The notes beneath the pieces were generated by a model. The model did no database searches. It saw only the letters and a program-made list of their open reading frames with translations, and was not told where the DNA came from. DNA of 34,306 nt from Alicyclobacillus sp. (GTDB lineage Bacteria > Bacillota > Bacilli > Alicyclobacillales > Alicyclobacillaceae): positions 1-34,306 of the forward strand of contig NZ_JAIMAV010000023.1 of assembly GCF_023511815.1 (NCBI RefSeq), read 5' to 3'. Made by a program: the position numbers and the translations under genes. Every line of letters begins with the position of its first letter. The stretch's first letter is position 1. This document shows, piece after piece, positions 10,713-27,213 of the stretch.

Positions 10713-10787
10713 GCGCCCGGGTGCCCGATGCCCAAAGCACCCGAGCGCCCGATGCCCAAAGTGCGCGAGTGCTCGAGTGCCCGAGGA
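10713..10787. repeat. Short degenerate tandem repeat between caxA-like gene and ilvA
   Basis: The 15-base unit GCCCGATGCCCAAAG occurs at 10723-10737 and exactly again at 10747-10761, a 24-bp period. It is flanked by related CGAGCGCCCG, GCGCGAGTGCTCGAGTGCCCGAG variants, giving a patch built from GCCCGA/GTGCCCGAG words. No reading frame of interest covers it. It lies just past the ilvA stop and may be simple replication slippage. Confidence 0.6.
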
Positions 10788-10804
10788 CCGGGCGGACGAT
10801 GCGC

Positions 10805-12031
10805 TCAGCGCAGCTTCGGCGTGTAGCCCTTCGCAGTGAGGCGCTCGAGGATGGACTCGACGTGCCGCGGGTCCCGCGTCTCCAGATCAATCTCCACCTC
10901 CGTCTGCCCGAGCGAGATCCCGGTGCCGACACGGTGATGCTGAATCGAGACGACGTTGGCGCCGAGAGCCGCGAACACGTCCAACAGGTCGCGCAGGGCG
11001 CCGGGGCGGTCATACAGGTGCACCGCCAACCGCAGGTAGCGCCCGGCCTCCGCCAGCCCGTGTTCAATCACCCGCGACAACACCGTCACGTCGATGTTGC
11101 CCCCGGAGAGCACGACGACCACGTTGCCGAGGGCGGCGGGCAGTTTCTTCGCGACACACGCCGCCAGCGCGGCCGCCGCGGCGCCCTCGACGACCAGCTT
11201 GCTGCGCTCCAGGAGCAGCACCAGCGTCCGCGCGATCTCCTCCTCCTCCACCGTGACGATGTCATCCACATACTGCTGCACCAAGGAAAAGGTCAGCTCG
11301 CCCGGCCGGCGGACGGCGATCCCGTCGGCGATGGTGGGCTGAGCCGGGATGGTCTCGACGCGGCCGCTGTCCAGCGCGTGGCGAAAGCAGGCCACGTTCG
11401 CGGCCTCGACGCCGTACACCCGCACCCGGGGCTGGACCGACTTGACGGCGAGGGCGATGCCCGCGGCGAGCCCCCCGCCGCCGACGGGCACCACGATGGC
11501 GTCGACCTCGGGCAGCTGTTGCAGGATCTCCAGGCCGATGGTGCCCTGGCCGGCGATGACGAGCGGATCGTCGAACGCGTGAACGAAGGTGTACCCGTGC
11601 ACGCGCTGCAGGTCGAGGGCGTGCTGATAGGCGTCGTCGTAGCTGTTGCCGGAGAGGACCACGGTGGCGCCGTAGCCCTGCGTGGCGGCGATCTTGGCGA
11701 GGCTCGCGGCCTCCGGCATGACGATGACGCACGGGCTTTGGTGGCTTGCGGCGGCAAACGCCACGCCCTGGGCGTGGTTTCCCGCCGAGGCGGCGATGAC
11801 GCCGCGGGATCGTTCCTCGTCGCTCAACTGCGCGATCTTGTTGTAGGCGCCGCGCAACTTGAACGACCCGGTCTTCTGCAGGTTCTCCAGCTTGAGAAAG
11901 ACGCGGTGGCCGGAGAGCGCGGAGAAGGTGTGCGACGGGTCGAGCGGCGTCGGCTGCACGATGCCGGCGAGGCGGGCCTGCGCCGCCTCGATGTCGCGCA
12001 GCGTCGGCCGCTGCAAGGGTTCAACCGACAT
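10805..12031 (-). CDS. ilvA: Threonine ammonia-lyase (threonine dehydratase), single-ACT form
   Basis: PLP enzyme that deaminates L-threonine to 2-oxobutanoate, the first committed step of isoleucine synthesis (or threonine catabolism). The 408-residue product has the PLP lysine in GSFKLRGAYNKI (about 55-66), SAGNHAQGVA (about 84-93), the glycine-rich phosphate loop VPVGGGGLAAG, and a C-terminal ACT domain (about 330-408; RLAVHLYDRPGALRDLLDVF). Having one ACT domain places it with the 400-residue class rather than the two-ACT E. coli IlvA. The ATG at 12031 has AAGGAGT upstream. It is divergent from hisC. The ACT domain predicts allosteric control by an amino acid. Confidence 0.93.
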   Translation of the reverse strand: MSVEPLQRPTLRDIEAAQARLAGIVQPTPLDPSHTFSALSGHRVFLKLENLQKTGSFKLRGAYNKIAQLSDEERSRGVIAASAGNHAQGVAFAAASHQSPCVIVMPEAASLAKIAATQGYGATVVLSGNSYDDAYQHALDLQRVHGYTFVHAFDDPLVIAGQGTIGLEILQQLPEVDAIVVPVGGGGLAAGIALAVKSVQPRVRVYGVEAANVACFRHALDSGRVETIPAQPTIADGIAVRRPGELTFSLVQQYVDDIVTVEEEEIARTLVLLLERSKLVVEGAAAAALAACVAKKLPAALGNVVVVLSGGNIDVTVLSRVIEHGLAEAGRYLRLAVHLYDRPGALRDLLDVFAALGANVVSIQHHRVGTGISLGQTEVEIDLETRDPRHVESILERLTAKGYTPKLR

Positions 12032-12100
12032 GGGCCGGACTCCTTTCCGAAATTCGCGGTGGTTGTGTTTCCGATGGGCCTCGTTTAAGCTAAGGTCAGC

Positions 12101-16606: not shown

Positions 16607-16680
16607 TGCCGAATGGTGTAATGGTAGCACGACTGACTCTGGATCAGTTAGTCTAGGTTCGAGTCCTAGTTCGGCAGCCA
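16607..16680 (+). tRNA. tRNA-Gln (anticodon CUG)
   Basis: The cloverleaf has acceptor TGCCGAA paired with TTCGGCA, an encoded CCA, the T-loop GGTTCGAGTCC and an anticodon loop CTCTGGA, so the anticodon is CUG and reads CAG. U1-A72 is the usual glutamine identity pair. It is first in a three-tRNA operon with a perfect promoter. Confidence 0.95.
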
Positions 16681-16682
16681 AT

Positions 16683-16757
16683 GGCCCTATCGTCTAATGG
16701 TTAGGACGCCGCCCTCTCACGGCGGTAATAGGGGTTCGAATCCCCTTAGGGTCACCA
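16683..16757 (+). tRNA. tRNA-Glu (anticodon CUC)
   Basis: Acceptor GGCCCTA pairs with TAGGGTC (one G-U), CCA is encoded, the T-loop is GGTTCGAATCC and the anticodon loop CTCTCAC gives CUC, reading GAG. It begins two bases after the end of tRNA-Gln. Confidence 0.95.
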
Positions 16758-16760
16758 CCT

Positions 16761-16836
16761 GGGTCATTAGCTCAATTGGCAGAGCATCCGACTCTTAATC
16801 GGCAGGTTGAAGGTTCGATTCCTTCATGACCCACCA
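16761..16836 (+). tRNA. tRNA-Lys (anticodon CUU)
   Basis: Acceptor GGGTCAT pairs with ATGACCC, CCA is encoded, the D-arm is AGCTCAATTGGCAGAGCA and the anticodon loop CTCTTAA gives CUU, reading AAG. It ends the tRNA operon and is followed by a strong terminator. Confidence 0.95.
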
Positions 16837-16885: not shown

Positions 16886-17093
16886 GCGTTCCGGAAAGGT
16901 TTGGCCAAGGGGCGGGGATGCGACCGGGCGGTGGCGGGGGTGGAAGGCGGGCCGACTTTGGGCGAGGGTGGACGCCGGCGGCGGGAGGCCCGCATCGCCG
17001 GGACGCGGGCGGTCAGGCCGGTGTGCGACCGCCCCGCGCACCGTCCTCTGGGTGTTACAATGGAAACACGAAGGACCGGGGGAGGTTCGTGGC

Positions 17094-18899
17094 GTGCGTT
17101 CGATGGAGGAGGGGCTTCGCCTCGTTTCCAACTGGCTCGATGAACAGGGAGACCGGGTGCTTCGGTGGCTTCTGGTCGCCGGTGGGGACCTGGCGCTGGC
17201 GCACGGACGGTTCCAGGAGACGTTCGTGCATTTGTGCCGCAGGCCTCCTCGCGTCGCGGATTTCGCCGAGCCGGCCGACGCGGTCCTCGCGGCGGCCTTC
17301 TCCGTCACGACCCGGGGGGAGGCGGCCGGGATGGACCTGGACGCGGACGCGCCGGACGCGGAGCCGGCCGACGCCGCCCCGGACGGCGATGGGGCTTCCG
17401 AGGGCGGGGAGGCCCGTGACGAGGAGATGACGGAGGCGGCCGCGGTGCTGTGCGAGGTGTTGCGCCCGGTTCGTCCGCTGGATCGCGCGGTGTGGCTGAC
17501 GTCCATCTTCTGTGGTCCGGACCTTGCTCGGCTCGAGCGCGTGGTTCTGCTTCCCGGCCGCAGGATTCAGGCGTGCTGCGACGCGGTGGCGGCGCGAGTG
17601 GCCGAGGGTCTGGCGGCGCGGGGCATCGCGTGGCCGAAGACGGCGCCCGAACAGGCCCGGTGGGTGATGGAGCAGGTGGCGGAGGTGCGCATGCCCGATT
17701 GGCTGCGCACACGGACGGAACAGTGGATCCGGGCGACGCACGCGCAGCTGCAGGCGGAACGGCATCACCGGGGACCGGTCGGATGGACCGTCGGGGTGGC
17801 GGCCCTGGGGGTCTTTGGCCTGGGCGCGGTCGCCTGGGGGGCGCACCGGCCGCCGGTGCCGGCCGCCGCGGCCCCTGCGCCGGTTTCGCATCCGGCGGTG
17901 CCGGGGATACCGGCGCCGCTGCAGGGGTTGCCCGCGACCGTCGACGCGCAGTTTCGGCTGTCGGGCGAGGTGCCGATGGACCGATTGCGGCACGCGGCCC
18001 TGGCCGCGGATGGGCTGTATCTGGCGCAGTTGCAGCTGGAGACGGACCGCTGGCCGGCCATCACCCTGCAGAAGGTGCCGTATTCGGCGTCGGGATCGGA
18101 CCTGAATGCGGCGCTGGAGGACGCGGGCCGGATGGAGATGGTCCCGCCGATGAACGATCTGGCCGGGCAAGCGGTGAACTGGTCGGTGTCGGATTGGTCG
18201 GTGCACATCAGCGGCGACTGGGCGGTGGCGGTGGTGACCTGGAAGCCCTCCACCGGCACCGGGGTGGTGGAGCAGCTGTACGGCCTGTACCGGCCGACGT
18301 CGGCCTCGGGTCTGCTTTTGTCCGTGGGTCCGGTGGGCTCGCCGCCCGCGGTGGCGGTGGGGGGCGGCCGCGTGGTGCTGCAATCGGCGGAAAAGCCCGC
18401 GGGCGCGACCGGAGGACCGCCGATTCAGGTGTACACGCTGACCGGCGAGGCGCCCCTGCGCGCCCTGGTTCCCTCCGGGCAGTTGAACGCGCCGTTCGGC
18501 GTGATGGACGAGCCCGCCATCGTCGGCGGGACCCTCGTCTTCCAGGGGATTCGGGGGCAGTCGGACGGGCCCAATCCGGTGACGACCGCGTGGTACACGC
18601 TTTCCTGGACAGGGCAGCTCGCCCGCTACGTGGGGCCGCCGGTGGACGGGCAGCCGCATTGGCCCGTGCGCGGCCAGGCGGGCAATCTGTGGTGGTGCGA
18701 GACGACGCCGGATGAGGACCGCCCCGGTGAGCTGAGGGTGTGGATGGGCACGCTGTCGGACGCATCCGCGGACCAGGCGAATCAACCCGCGGGGCAGCTG
18801 GAGTCCGCCGTCCCCTGGTTCACAGCCGACGACCAGCGGGTCGCGTGGGTGCAGACCACCGGCGGCGTGACTCAGCTGGTGGTGGCCACCGTCAACTGA
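17094..18899 (+). CDS. Sigma-factor-like N-terminus fused through one membrane helix to an extracytoplasmic domain; function unknown
   Basis: A 601-residue protein with a clear three-part layout. Residues 4-50 (EEGLRLVSNWLDEQGDRVLR, then HGRFQETFVHLCRR) look like region 2 of an ECF sigma factor; 115-170 (a helical stretch ending RLERVVLLPGRRIQACCDAV) resemble a decayed region 4. An acidic, Ala/Asp/Pro-rich linker (80-112) separates them. One membrane helix (WTVGVAALGVFGLGAVAWGA, 231-250) follows, then a proline/alanine spacer and about 340 residues of extracytoplasmic beta-rich sequence with repeated G-x-W/V strands, suggestive of a propeller. The GTG at 17094 has GGGGGAGG eight bases upstream; ATG 17103 is an alternative. 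It precedes uvrC by 93 bp. This could be a membrane-bound sensor derived from sigma/anti-sigma parts; that is inference. Confidence 0.7.
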   Translation: MRSMEEGLRLVSNWLDEQGDRVLRWLLVAGGDLALAHGRFQETFVHLCRRPPRVADFAEPADAVLAAAFSVTTRGEAAGMDLDADAPDAEPADAAPDGDGASEGGEARDEEMTEAAAVLCEVLRPVRPLDRAVWLTSIFCGPDLARLERVVLLPGRRIQACCDAVAARVAEGLAARGIAWPKTAPEQARWVMEQVAEVRMPDWLRTRTEQWIRATHAQLQAERHHRGPVGWTVGVAALGVFGLGAVAWGAHRPPVPAAAAPAPVSHPAVPGIPAPLQGLPATVDAQFRLSGEVPMDRLRHAALAADGLYLAQLQLETDRWPAITLQKVPYSASGSDLNAALEDAGRMEMVPPMNDLAGQAVNWSVSDWSVHISGDWAVAVVTWKPSTGTGVVEQLYGLYRPTSASGLLLSVGPVGSPPAVAVGGGRVVLQSAEKPAGATGGPPIQVYTLTGEAPLRALVPSGQLNAPFGVMDEPAIVGGTLVFQGIRGQSDGPNPVTTAWYTLSWTGQLARYVGPPVDGQPHWPVRGQAGNLWWCETTPDEDRPGELRVWMGTLSDASADQANQPAGQLESAVPWFTADDQRVAWVQTTGGVTQLVVATVN

Positions 18900-18992
18900 C
18901 CCGTCGGCGACCGGCCCCGGAATGCGGGACGGATCGACCGGATGGAGGAGGATTGGGCGGCCGGAGACACAGAGGGAGGGGAGGGAGACGGG

Positions 18993-20768
18993 ATGGACGA
19001 ACACATCCGGGCGAAATTGGGGCTTCTGCCCGCCAAACCGGGCGTGTACATCATGAAGGACCAGGATGGGCGCGTCCTGTACGTGGGCAAGGCGAAGGTG
19101 CTCAAAAACCGGGTCCGCTCCTACTTCACCGGATCGCACGATCGCAAGACGCAGGCGCTGGTCTCGCGGATTCGGGACTTCGAGTACATTGTGACGGACA
19201 CGGTCGTCGAGGCGCTGCTCCTGGAGTGCAACCTCATCAAGCAGCACACGCCGCCTTACAACATCATGCTGCGGGACGACAAGGCCTACCCGTACATCAA
19301 ACTGACCAACGAGCCGCATCCGCGCCTGGAGATTGTCCGGCGGGTGCAGAATGACCGTGCGAAGTATTTCGGCCCGTATCCGAACGCGACGGCGGCGGCC
19401 GAGACCAAGCGGCTGCTGGAACGGCTGTACCCGCTGCGCAAGTGCCGCACCCTCAAGAAGAAGGTGTGCCTCTACTACCACATCGGCCAGTGCCTGGCGC
19501 CGTGCGAGTTTCACGTGCCACAGGAGACCTACGAGCGGATCACCAAGGAGATCACCCAGTTTCTCAGCGGCGGTCACCGGGCGGTGCAGGAAGAACTGCG
19601 CGCGCAGATGGAGCGCGAGGCGGAGGCGCTGCGGTTCGAGCGGGCCAAGGAGCTGCGGGATCTCATCCAGCACATCGACCAGGTGATGGAGACGCAGAAG
19701 GTGACGGTGCTCGACCAGGTGGACCGGGATGTGTTCGGATACGCGGCCGACCGCGGGCTTCTGTGCGTGCAGGTGTTCTACGTGCGGGCGGGCAAGCTGA
19801 TAGAGCGCTCCGTTTCGGTGATGCCGCACTACGGCGATCCGCTGGACGATTTCATGTCGTACGTGGAACAGTTCTACTTCGAGCAACACGACGTGCCCAA
19901 GGAGATTCTGCTTCCGCAGGGGGCCTCCAGCGACGCCCTGGCGGGGTGGCTGCACGCCAAGTGCCTGCACCCGCAACGGGGGCCCAAGCGCCAGCTGGTC
20001 GATCTCGCCTGTGAAAACGCCCGCCTCGCGCTCGAGGAGCGCCTGCGCCTGATGGAGCGGGATCAGGAGAAGACGCTCGGCGCGATCGCCGAGTTGGGCG
20101 ACATCCTGGCCATCCCGATGCCGCGCCGCATCGAGGCGTTCGACAACTCCAACCTGCAGGGCTCGGATCCGGTGTCGGCGATGGTGGTGTTCATCGACGG
20201 ACGGCCGGCCAAATCGGAGTACCGCAAGTACAAGATCCGGACGGTCAAGGGCCCGGATGATTACGCCTCGATGCGGGAGGTGATCCGCCGGCGGTACACC
20301 CGGGTGCTCAAGGAGAAGCTGCCGCTGCCGGACCTCATCGTGATCGACGGGGGAAGGGGGCAGATCGCCGCGGCCCTCGACGTGCTCGAGAATGAGCTGG
20401 ACCTCGACATCCCGGTGTGCGGGCTGGTCAAGGACGAGCGCCACCGCACGAGCCGGCTGATGTTCCGCGACGACCCGGAACCGGTGCCGGTGGACCGGCA
20501 CTCGCAGGCGTTTCACCTGCTCGAGCGGATTCAGGAGGAGGTCCACCGGTACGCGGTGACGTTTCACCGGCAGGTGCGCAGGCGCACGGGACTGGCCTCG
20601 GTGCTCGACACCATCCCGGGCGTGGGGCCGGAGCGCAGAAAGAAGCTCTTGTCCCGCTTCGGCTCGCTGCAGGCGATCCGCGAGGCGCCGCCGGAGGCGT
20701 TCCGGGAGCTTGGCATCGGGGAAAAGTTGGCCGAGCGGATCCGGGAACACCTGTCGGAGCAGTCCTGA
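18993..20768 (+). CDS. uvrC: Excinuclease ABC subunit C
   Basis: The nuclease of nucleotide excision repair, which makes the 3' then 5' incisions around a lesion held by UvrAB. The 591-residue product has the GIY-YIG domain (PGVYIMKDQDGRVLYVGKAK, about 15-34), the UvrB-binding UVR segment (FERAKELRDLIQHI, about 218-231), the UvrC RNase-H-like domain (EAFDNSNLQGSDPV; LIVIDGGRGQ; DERHRTSRL) and C-terminal helix-hairpin-helix motifs (IPGVGPERRKKLLSRFG). ATG 18993 has GGGAGGGGAGGGAG upstream. It stands just before the sdhCAB operon as in B. subtilis. The very long opposite-strand frame over it is a codon-bias artefact. Confidence 0.96.
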   Translation: MDEHIRAKLGLLPAKPGVYIMKDQDGRVLYVGKAKVLKNRVRSYFTGSHDRKTQALVSRIRDFEYIVTDTVVEALLLECNLIKQHTPPYNIMLRDDKAYPYIKLTNEPHPRLEIVRRVQNDRAKYFGPYPNATAAAETKRLLERLYPLRKCRTLKKKVCLYYHIGQCLAPCEFHVPQETYERITKEITQFLSGGHRAVQEELRAQMEREAEALRFERAKELRDLIQHIDQVMETQKVTVLDQVDRDVFGYAADRGLLCVQVFYVRAGKLIERSVSVMPHYGDPLDDFMSYVEQFYFEQHDVPKEILLPQGASSDALAGWLHAKCLHPQRGPKRQLVDLACENARLALEERLRLMERDQEKTLGAIAELGDILAIPMPRRIEAFDNSNLQGSDPVSAMVVFIDGRPAKSEYRKYKIRTVKGPDDYASMREVIRRRYTRVLKEKLPLPDLIVIDGGRGQIAAALDVLENELDLDIPVCGLVKDERHRTSRLMFRDDPEPVPVDRHSQAFHLLERIQEEVHRYAVTFHRQVRRRTGLASVLDTIPGVGPERRKKLLSRFGSLQAIREAPPEAFRELGIGEKLAERIREHLSEQS

Positions 20769-26985: not shown

Positions 26986-27213
26986 ATGTCTTCCGGGAGC
27001 GAGTTGCGAGGGAAGTCGCTGCTCACCAACCGTGAGCGCGAAGTATTTGAATTGCTTGTACAGGACAAGACCACCAAGGAGATCGCCGCTCAGCTGTTCG
27101 TCAGCGAGAAGACGGTTCGAAACCATATTTCGAACGTTATGAAAAAACTGAACGTCAAAGGGCGGTCCCAGGCCGTGGTGGAGCTGGTCCGGCTCGGTGA
27201 ACTGAACATCTGA
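26986..27213 (+). CDS. gerE: Spore germination/coat regulator GerE
   Basis: A 75-residue LuxR-type helix-turn-helix protein that regulates late mother-cell genes, including spore coat genes, after sigma-K. The core LLTNREREVFELLVQDKTTK and SEKTVRNHISNVMKKLNVKG, then RSQAVVELVRLGEL, is nearly identical to Bacillus GerE (74 residues). There is no receiver domain. ATG 26986 follows AAGGAGGG. The sigma-K-like promoter upstream and neighbours (a YsmB-like MarR protein next) support the assignment, and the gene shows that the organism forms endospores or descends from spore formers. Confidence 0.96.
   Translation: MSSGSELRGKSLLTNREREVFELLVQDKTTKEIAAQLFVSEKTVRNHISNVMKKLNVKGRSQAVVELVRLGELNI

Follow-up and report, generated by a model that had tools for sequence, protein, structure and literature searches.

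A membrane-tethered ECF-sigma-like protein with an outer beta-propeller in the Alicyclobacillaceae: a candidate sigma mimic

The analyzed window, a stretch of 34,306 nucleotides from an Alicyclobacillus genome, contains a gene for a 601-aa protein that joins an ECF-sigma-like domain, one membrane helix, and an outer beta-propeller in a single chain. The ECF ancestry and the anatomy of this protein are secure, and it is a new, unnamed, and family-wide variant of single-chain sigma fusions and sigma mimics. As a tentatively preferred explanation, we propose a membrane-tethered, PhyR-like sigma mimic (decoy) that derives from an ECF sigma factor and is controlled by its outer sensor. The main known case of sigma mimicry is the soluble PhyR, and, to our knowledge, partner switching of the PhyR type has not been described outside the Alphaproteobacteria. 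A membrane-spanning mimic, if this reading is true, would let a single chain both receive a signal and switch sigma partners, and the mimic role would also explain the persistence of a degenerate sigma domain across a whole bacterial family. As Alicyclobacillus includes juice-spoilage organisms of hot acid, its envelope signaling is also of practical interest.

Gene, domain layout, and predicted fold

The reading frame begins with a GTG at 17094 and is open through 18899. The same-genus orthologues L002 and L003 have a TTG start at the aligned place and the same Shine-Dalgarno sequence, GGGGGAGG, upstream. A consensus promoter scan upstream of the gene gave no match, a negative result that counts for little in a G+C-rich genome. 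The gene, its parts, and its conserved neighbors are as follows:

16607..16836, + strand: tRNA-Gln, tRNA-Glu, tRNA-Lys cluster, conserved upstream neighbor
17078..17085, + strand: Shine-Dalgarno sequence GGGGGAGG, graded strong, with 8 nt between its end and the GTG
17094..18899, + strand: whole gene, 601 aa, ECF-sigma-like domain plus one membrane helix plus outer beta-propeller
17103..17336, + strand: sigma region 2-like domain, residues 4-81 (AlphaFold; ECF-model matches of orthologues)
17337..17429, + strand: acidic disordered linker, residues 82-112 (pLDDT <50 over most of it; near-neutral evolution)
17430..17621, + strand: sigma region 4-like domain, residues 113-176 (AlphaFold; PF08281 match in orthologue L027)
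17643..17771, + strand: juxtamembrane helices, residues 184-226, with a conserved basic RHHRGP motif at the end (AlphaFold helices 184-194 and 202-226)
17778..17846, + strand: single membrane helix, residues 229-251 (AlphaFold helix, sequence, alignment)
17925..18896, + strand: extracytoplasmic beta-propeller, residues 278-601 (VIA-align matches to sialidases, NHL, and TolB)
18942..20768, + strand: uvrC, conserved downstream neighbor (TIGR00194, 7.9e-196)

A first-pass annotation of the window had assigned residues 4-50 to an ECF-like region 2 and residues 115-170 to a decayed region 4, followed by one helix in the membrane and an outer part of about 340 residues. The AlphaFold model, generated with 27 orthologues and averaging a pLDDT of 85.8 over the full chain, matches these boundaries, with region 2 helices at 4-30, 33-49, and 60-81, region 4 helices at 114-175, juxtamembrane helices at 184-226, the membrane helix at 229-251, and strands at 281-600. 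The juxtamembrane helices were modeled with confidence, and residues 1-224 modeled alone reached a pLDDT of 89.3 and a pTM of 0.84. In the alignment of the 27 orthologues, A214, A221, and G227 are invariant. As basic residues lie on the N-terminal side of the membrane helix, we orient this helix N-in/C-out.

The N-terminal model matched RpoE-NepR with a Z-score of 13.6, anti-sigma-bound SigW (SigW-RsiW) with 13.3 (3.1 Å over 143 residues), PhyR with 12.6 (2.3 Å over 121 residues), and CnrH-CnrY with 11.8. The overall rmsd to polymerase-bound, open sigma factors was about 28 Å. The cytoplasmic part is thus predicted, at high model confidence, to take the closed sigma2-sigma4 form, like anti-sigma-bound sigma factors, with the caveat that AlphaFold may partly lean toward anti-sigma-bound structures from its training. 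For residues 278-601, VIA-align gave Z-scores of up to 12.4 with sialidases, 11.6 with NHL proteins, and 11.2 with TolB, in agreement with the earlier suggestion of an outer propeller, and the likeness to all three is a resemblance of the predicted fold only. The neuraminidases among the top structure matches reflect the common propeller fold at about 7-10% identity and do not imply that the outer part is an enzyme.

ECF ancestry, contact residues, and selection

The window protein alone matched no Pfam or NCBIfam model. With an HMM built from 26 ECF sigma factors of the same family of genomes, orthologues scored up to 53.8 bits, compared to at best 5.7 bits among 540 shuffled N-termini, and the window copy scored -1.8 bits, so that its sigma relationship is provable only through its relatives. 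Judged by its sequence, the window copy is one of the most decayed members, and the orthologue of A. mengziensis is better preserved. NCBIfam ECF sigma models matched 11 of the 27 orthologues (best 1.3e-9), and the region 4 model PF08281 exceeded the Pfam cut-off in L027 (1.2e-6) and likewise in genome G025, with region 4 recognizable by Pfam in several orthologues; the best match to the region 2 model PF04542 among the orthologues was 0.011. With the family profile, ECF sigma factors ranked first in the PDB, which provided the sigma-like profile match anticipated for the N-terminus, and a search across the class returned stand-alone ECF reading frames at about 1e-10. At the family level, ECF-type region 2 and region 4 domains are present; region 4 itself is missing from about half of the family. 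The previously proposed single-chain, membrane-tethered ECF derivative is thus borne out by ancestry and domain order.

Conservation was analyzed using an alignment of the 26 real ECF sigma factors and 12 two-domain orthologues, with each ECF left out in turn for the baseline. The orthologues kept 77% of the conserved hydrophobic positions (real ECFs 89%) and 33% of the conserved polar, tryptophan, and glycine positions (real ECFs 87%; p ~9e-7 for polar), and the best-kept orthologues held just 38% of the conserved polar positions. The invariant glutamine of region 2.2 was retained in 3 of the 12 two-domain orthologues, the region 2 tryptophan was exchanged to alanine in 11 of them, and the arginines of the recognition helix were mostly gone. 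In terms of the aligned sequences, the hydrophobic core of the sigma fold is kept, and the residues that contact RNA polymerase and DNA are largely lost. This loss supports the earlier view that the protein is not a classical sigma factor, and classical sigma activity is likely to be absent. The contact changes are common to the members, as with an 'LLLPxR' form of region 4 that is found in different genera, and for this reason they look like a derived function and not like random wear.

The dN/dS of region 2 was 0.03-0.33 in all nine analyzed pairs, including the group that lacks region 4, and that of the propeller was 0.05-0.13, while the linker was near neutral in same-genus pairs (0.6-1.5). 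Region 4 and the juxtamembrane part were less clearly low, with values up to 0.76 in deeper pairs. Several deeper pairs have high and therefore unreliable dS, and the weight rests on the close pairs L002/L003, L011/L012, and L020/L021. The purifying selection on region 2 makes it unlikely that this domain is a relic. The mean column identity among orthologues was 39% in the membrane and propeller part versus 23% in the N-terminus.

Distribution, locus, and variant forms

A profile built from the membrane helix and the outer part matched once in each of 40 out of 41 Alicyclobacillaceae genomes and not at all in 18 sister-family genomes. The exception, G011, cannot be judged because its uvrC begins at the very edge of the contig. 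In a spread sample of the class, matches were confined to the Alicyclobacillus family, and a sample of the phylum gave only two weak, partial outer-domain matches, both without the sigma part. The two proteins concerned (L170:895-2103, match orientation, in G437, and L169:1-2580 in G605; E-values of 7e-4 and 4e-7 for the propeller part) are membrane-anchored or lipoprotein-like. A stand-alone anti-sigma factor with the same outer domain was not found in the family genomes, which give one match each.

Relatives in named Alicyclobacillus species were found with a nine-sequence outer-domain alignment, and the copy of A. macrosporangiidus, a member of the same genus, is 62% identical and occupies the same locus. 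Of the 16 named loci with flanks, 14 show the gene order gltX, tRNA-Gln, tRNA-Glu, tRNA-Lys, the gene of the 601-aa protein, uvrC, and the sdh genes; for the window, the identities of gltX, uvrC, sdhA, and sdhB were confirmed. In the other two loci, mainly the downstream half is visible, because the contig ends (L043) or genes upstream went undetected (L044). The search for conserved neighbors advised by the first-pass annotation hence led to the tRNA cluster upstream and uvrC downstream. uvrC adjoins the gene in every locus whose flanks were examined, and its ATG overlaps the stop codon in A. shizuokensis, A. kakegawensis, and A. herbarius, so that the orthologue and uvrC are probably co-translated in these three species. 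No ECF sigma gene stands beside the gene in the window or in the named loci with flanks, where the neighbors are the tRNAs and uvrC. Among the sister-family loci listed, there was no ancestral separate sigma/anti-sigma pair at the same place, and NfeD/SPFH-type and other small genes were found upstream of uvrC; in the listed loci of more distant genomes, a thioredoxin gene occupied this position.

The orthologues differ in their parts. Recognizable region 4 was lost in about half of the lineages, and in a tree of the outer part, the two-domain members group nearly together (two changes versus a shuffled mean of about nine; root not resolved), a sequence-based result that fits a single main loss of region 4. 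The 418-aa orthologue of G008 (L028:1498-2754, - strand) begins just before the membrane helix and lacks the sigma part, and its gene still precedes uvrC. The orthologue of G012 (L150:430-1224, uvrC orientation) has the sigma part and the membrane helix, followed by a serine-rich tail without a propeller, and is located directly before uvrC. With two-domain, region 2-only, sigma-less, and propeller-less forms at a fixed locus, the family offers a natural series for dissecting the individual parts.

Three other reading frames of the window were observed. On the - strand, an antisense frame of 1231 codons (17055-20750) spans the gene of the 601-aa protein and uvrC. High G+C codon use most likely produces it incidentally, since relatives also show this antisense opening over uvrC. 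A 455-aa frame without NCBIfam match (10721-12088, + strand) is possibly another fast-evolving family gene; in most of the named Alicyclobacillus loci, a relative of 26-55% identity precedes hisC at the corresponding position. A 90-aa open frame 3' of the sdh genes (27022-27150, + strand) has a region-4/LuxR-type HTH match (PF08281, 40.9 bits) and may be gerE-like.

Candidate role and known systems

The combination of a kept closed fold and lost contacts suggests that the protein probably binds a sigma partner and does not start transcription. The putative partner of the cytoplasmic part would be an anti-sigma factor, or perhaps the core polymerase. The propeller would act as the receptor, sensing or binding a ligand of the envelope, and would in this way change the exposure of the sigma-like face via the single membrane helix; decoy action, sensor role, and partner identity are aspects that we infer. 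A more specific version, in which the mimic domain of such a receptor titrates an anti-sigma factor and releases a real ECF sigma factor upon ligand binding by the propeller, would be a transmembrane counterpart of PhyR-type partner switching and is possible, if doubtful.

PhyR has a correct ECF structure with degenerate core- and promoter-contact regions, and it titrates an anti-sigma factor (PMC8103513). The 601-aa protein resembles PhyR in its ECF-like two-domain fold, which is a predicted one here, and in its degenerate polymerase and promoter contacts. However, PhyR is a soluble alphaproteobacterial anti-anti-sigma factor with a C-terminal receiver domain and NepR as partner, whereas the 601-aa protein has a membrane helix and a propeller instead of the receiver domain and belongs to the Bacillota. 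The sigma mimic is favored because kept fold, lost contacts, and closed form are the pattern described for PhyR, and the ECF ancestry, the selection on region 2, and the single copy at a fixed locus agree with it. Against a mimic, neither end is indispensable, as region 4 is lost in about half of the members and the variants of G008 and G012 lack the sigma part or the propeller, respectively; moreover, the closed arrangement may in part reflect the AlphaFold training bias, and the dN/dS of region 4 and the juxtamembrane part is not uniformly low.

The first-pass annotation had considered ECF sigma factors and membrane anti-sigma proteins to be normally separate and knew no named family for the fusion. 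Single-chain fusions as such are not new, since IutY (ECF243) and ECF48, ECF52, and ECF53 are single-chain sigma/anti-sigma proteins, and an active sigma factor is released by proteolysis from IutY, as is proposed for ECF52 (PMC8999054). Like the 601-aa protein, each of them is a single polypeptide with sigma regions 2 and 4, a membrane helix, and an extracytoplasmic part. In ECF48, ECF52, and ECF53, the stretch from region 4 to the membrane holds an anti-sigma domain of the zinc-finger (ZAS) type, and these proteins and IutY are thought to be working sigma factors. In contrast, the 601-aa protein has lost contact residues, has a propeller as outer domain, and has no zinc finger: none of 27 members matched a zinc-finger model, and residues 177-226 of the window protein contain no cysteine. 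The absence of a named family for the 601-aa variant is confirmed. ECF57, with WD40-like repeats fused to an ECF (PMC8999054), also has a propeller-type repeat extension, a likeness by description, and the searches run found no sequence relation to it.

It was in principle conceivable that the N-terminus is an unrelated helical bundle with a sigma likeness by chance, and the window protein, with no family match and a score below zero on the ECF HMM, would by itself permit this. This candidate is refuted by the orthologues and extremely improbable, given the many independent ECF matches of orthologues and profile and the structural match to two-domain ECFs. It is also quite unlikely that the sigma part is a relic, i.e., that the membrane-anchored propeller works and the N-terminus is a mere anchor being lost. 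The lower identity of the N-terminus, its absence in the G008 protein, and the disappearance of region 4 in about half of the tree would fit such a relic, but region 2 is constrained in all nine pairs while the linker is near neutral in same-genus pairs, and the G012 protein retains N-terminus and membrane helix without a propeller. The selection test on the sequences accordingly disfavors the relic.

The chief rival of the mimic is an autoinhibited, IutY-like true sigma factor, in which the juxtamembrane helices would form a built-in anti-sigma clamp and a propeller signal would trigger intramembrane proteolysis that frees an active sigma2-sigma4 part. We consider it unlikely, although single-chain proteins of this kind have a precedent (PMC8999054), region 4 is recognizable in several orthologues, and the model is closed with confident juxtamembrane helices. 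Furthermore, in Tt-TolB of Thermoanaerobacter tengcongensis, the 39 residues before the membrane helix and TolB-like domain suffice to bind the sigma factor (PMC3397946). The Tt-RpoE1/Tt-TolB system may share with the 601-aa protein the layout of a short cytoplasmic segment, one membrane helix, and a TolB-like outer domain with an ECF link, but it consists of two separate genes with a working sigma factor and not of one chain with a decayed one. The outer fold fits this layout (TolB Z-score given above), and stand-alone anti-sigma-like proteins encoded next to ECFs in these genomes likewise carry a short basic segment ahead of their membrane helix. However, the hhalign match of the juxtamembrane part to the N-termini of these anti-sigma-like proteins was insignificant (41% probability), even the best-kept orthologues have lost most conserved polar positions, the region 2 tryptophan and the recognition-helix arginines are largely missing, and about half of the members have no recognizable region 4.

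The anti-sigma-like proteins are encoded in L131, L127, L143, and L129, where an ECF gene is followed by a gene for a protein that spans the membrane once, starts with a short basic segment, and has a beta-rich outer part. These membrane proteins are probably the anti-sigma factors of the respective ECFs, and some of these ECFs count among the closest relatives of the sigma-like part that stand alone.
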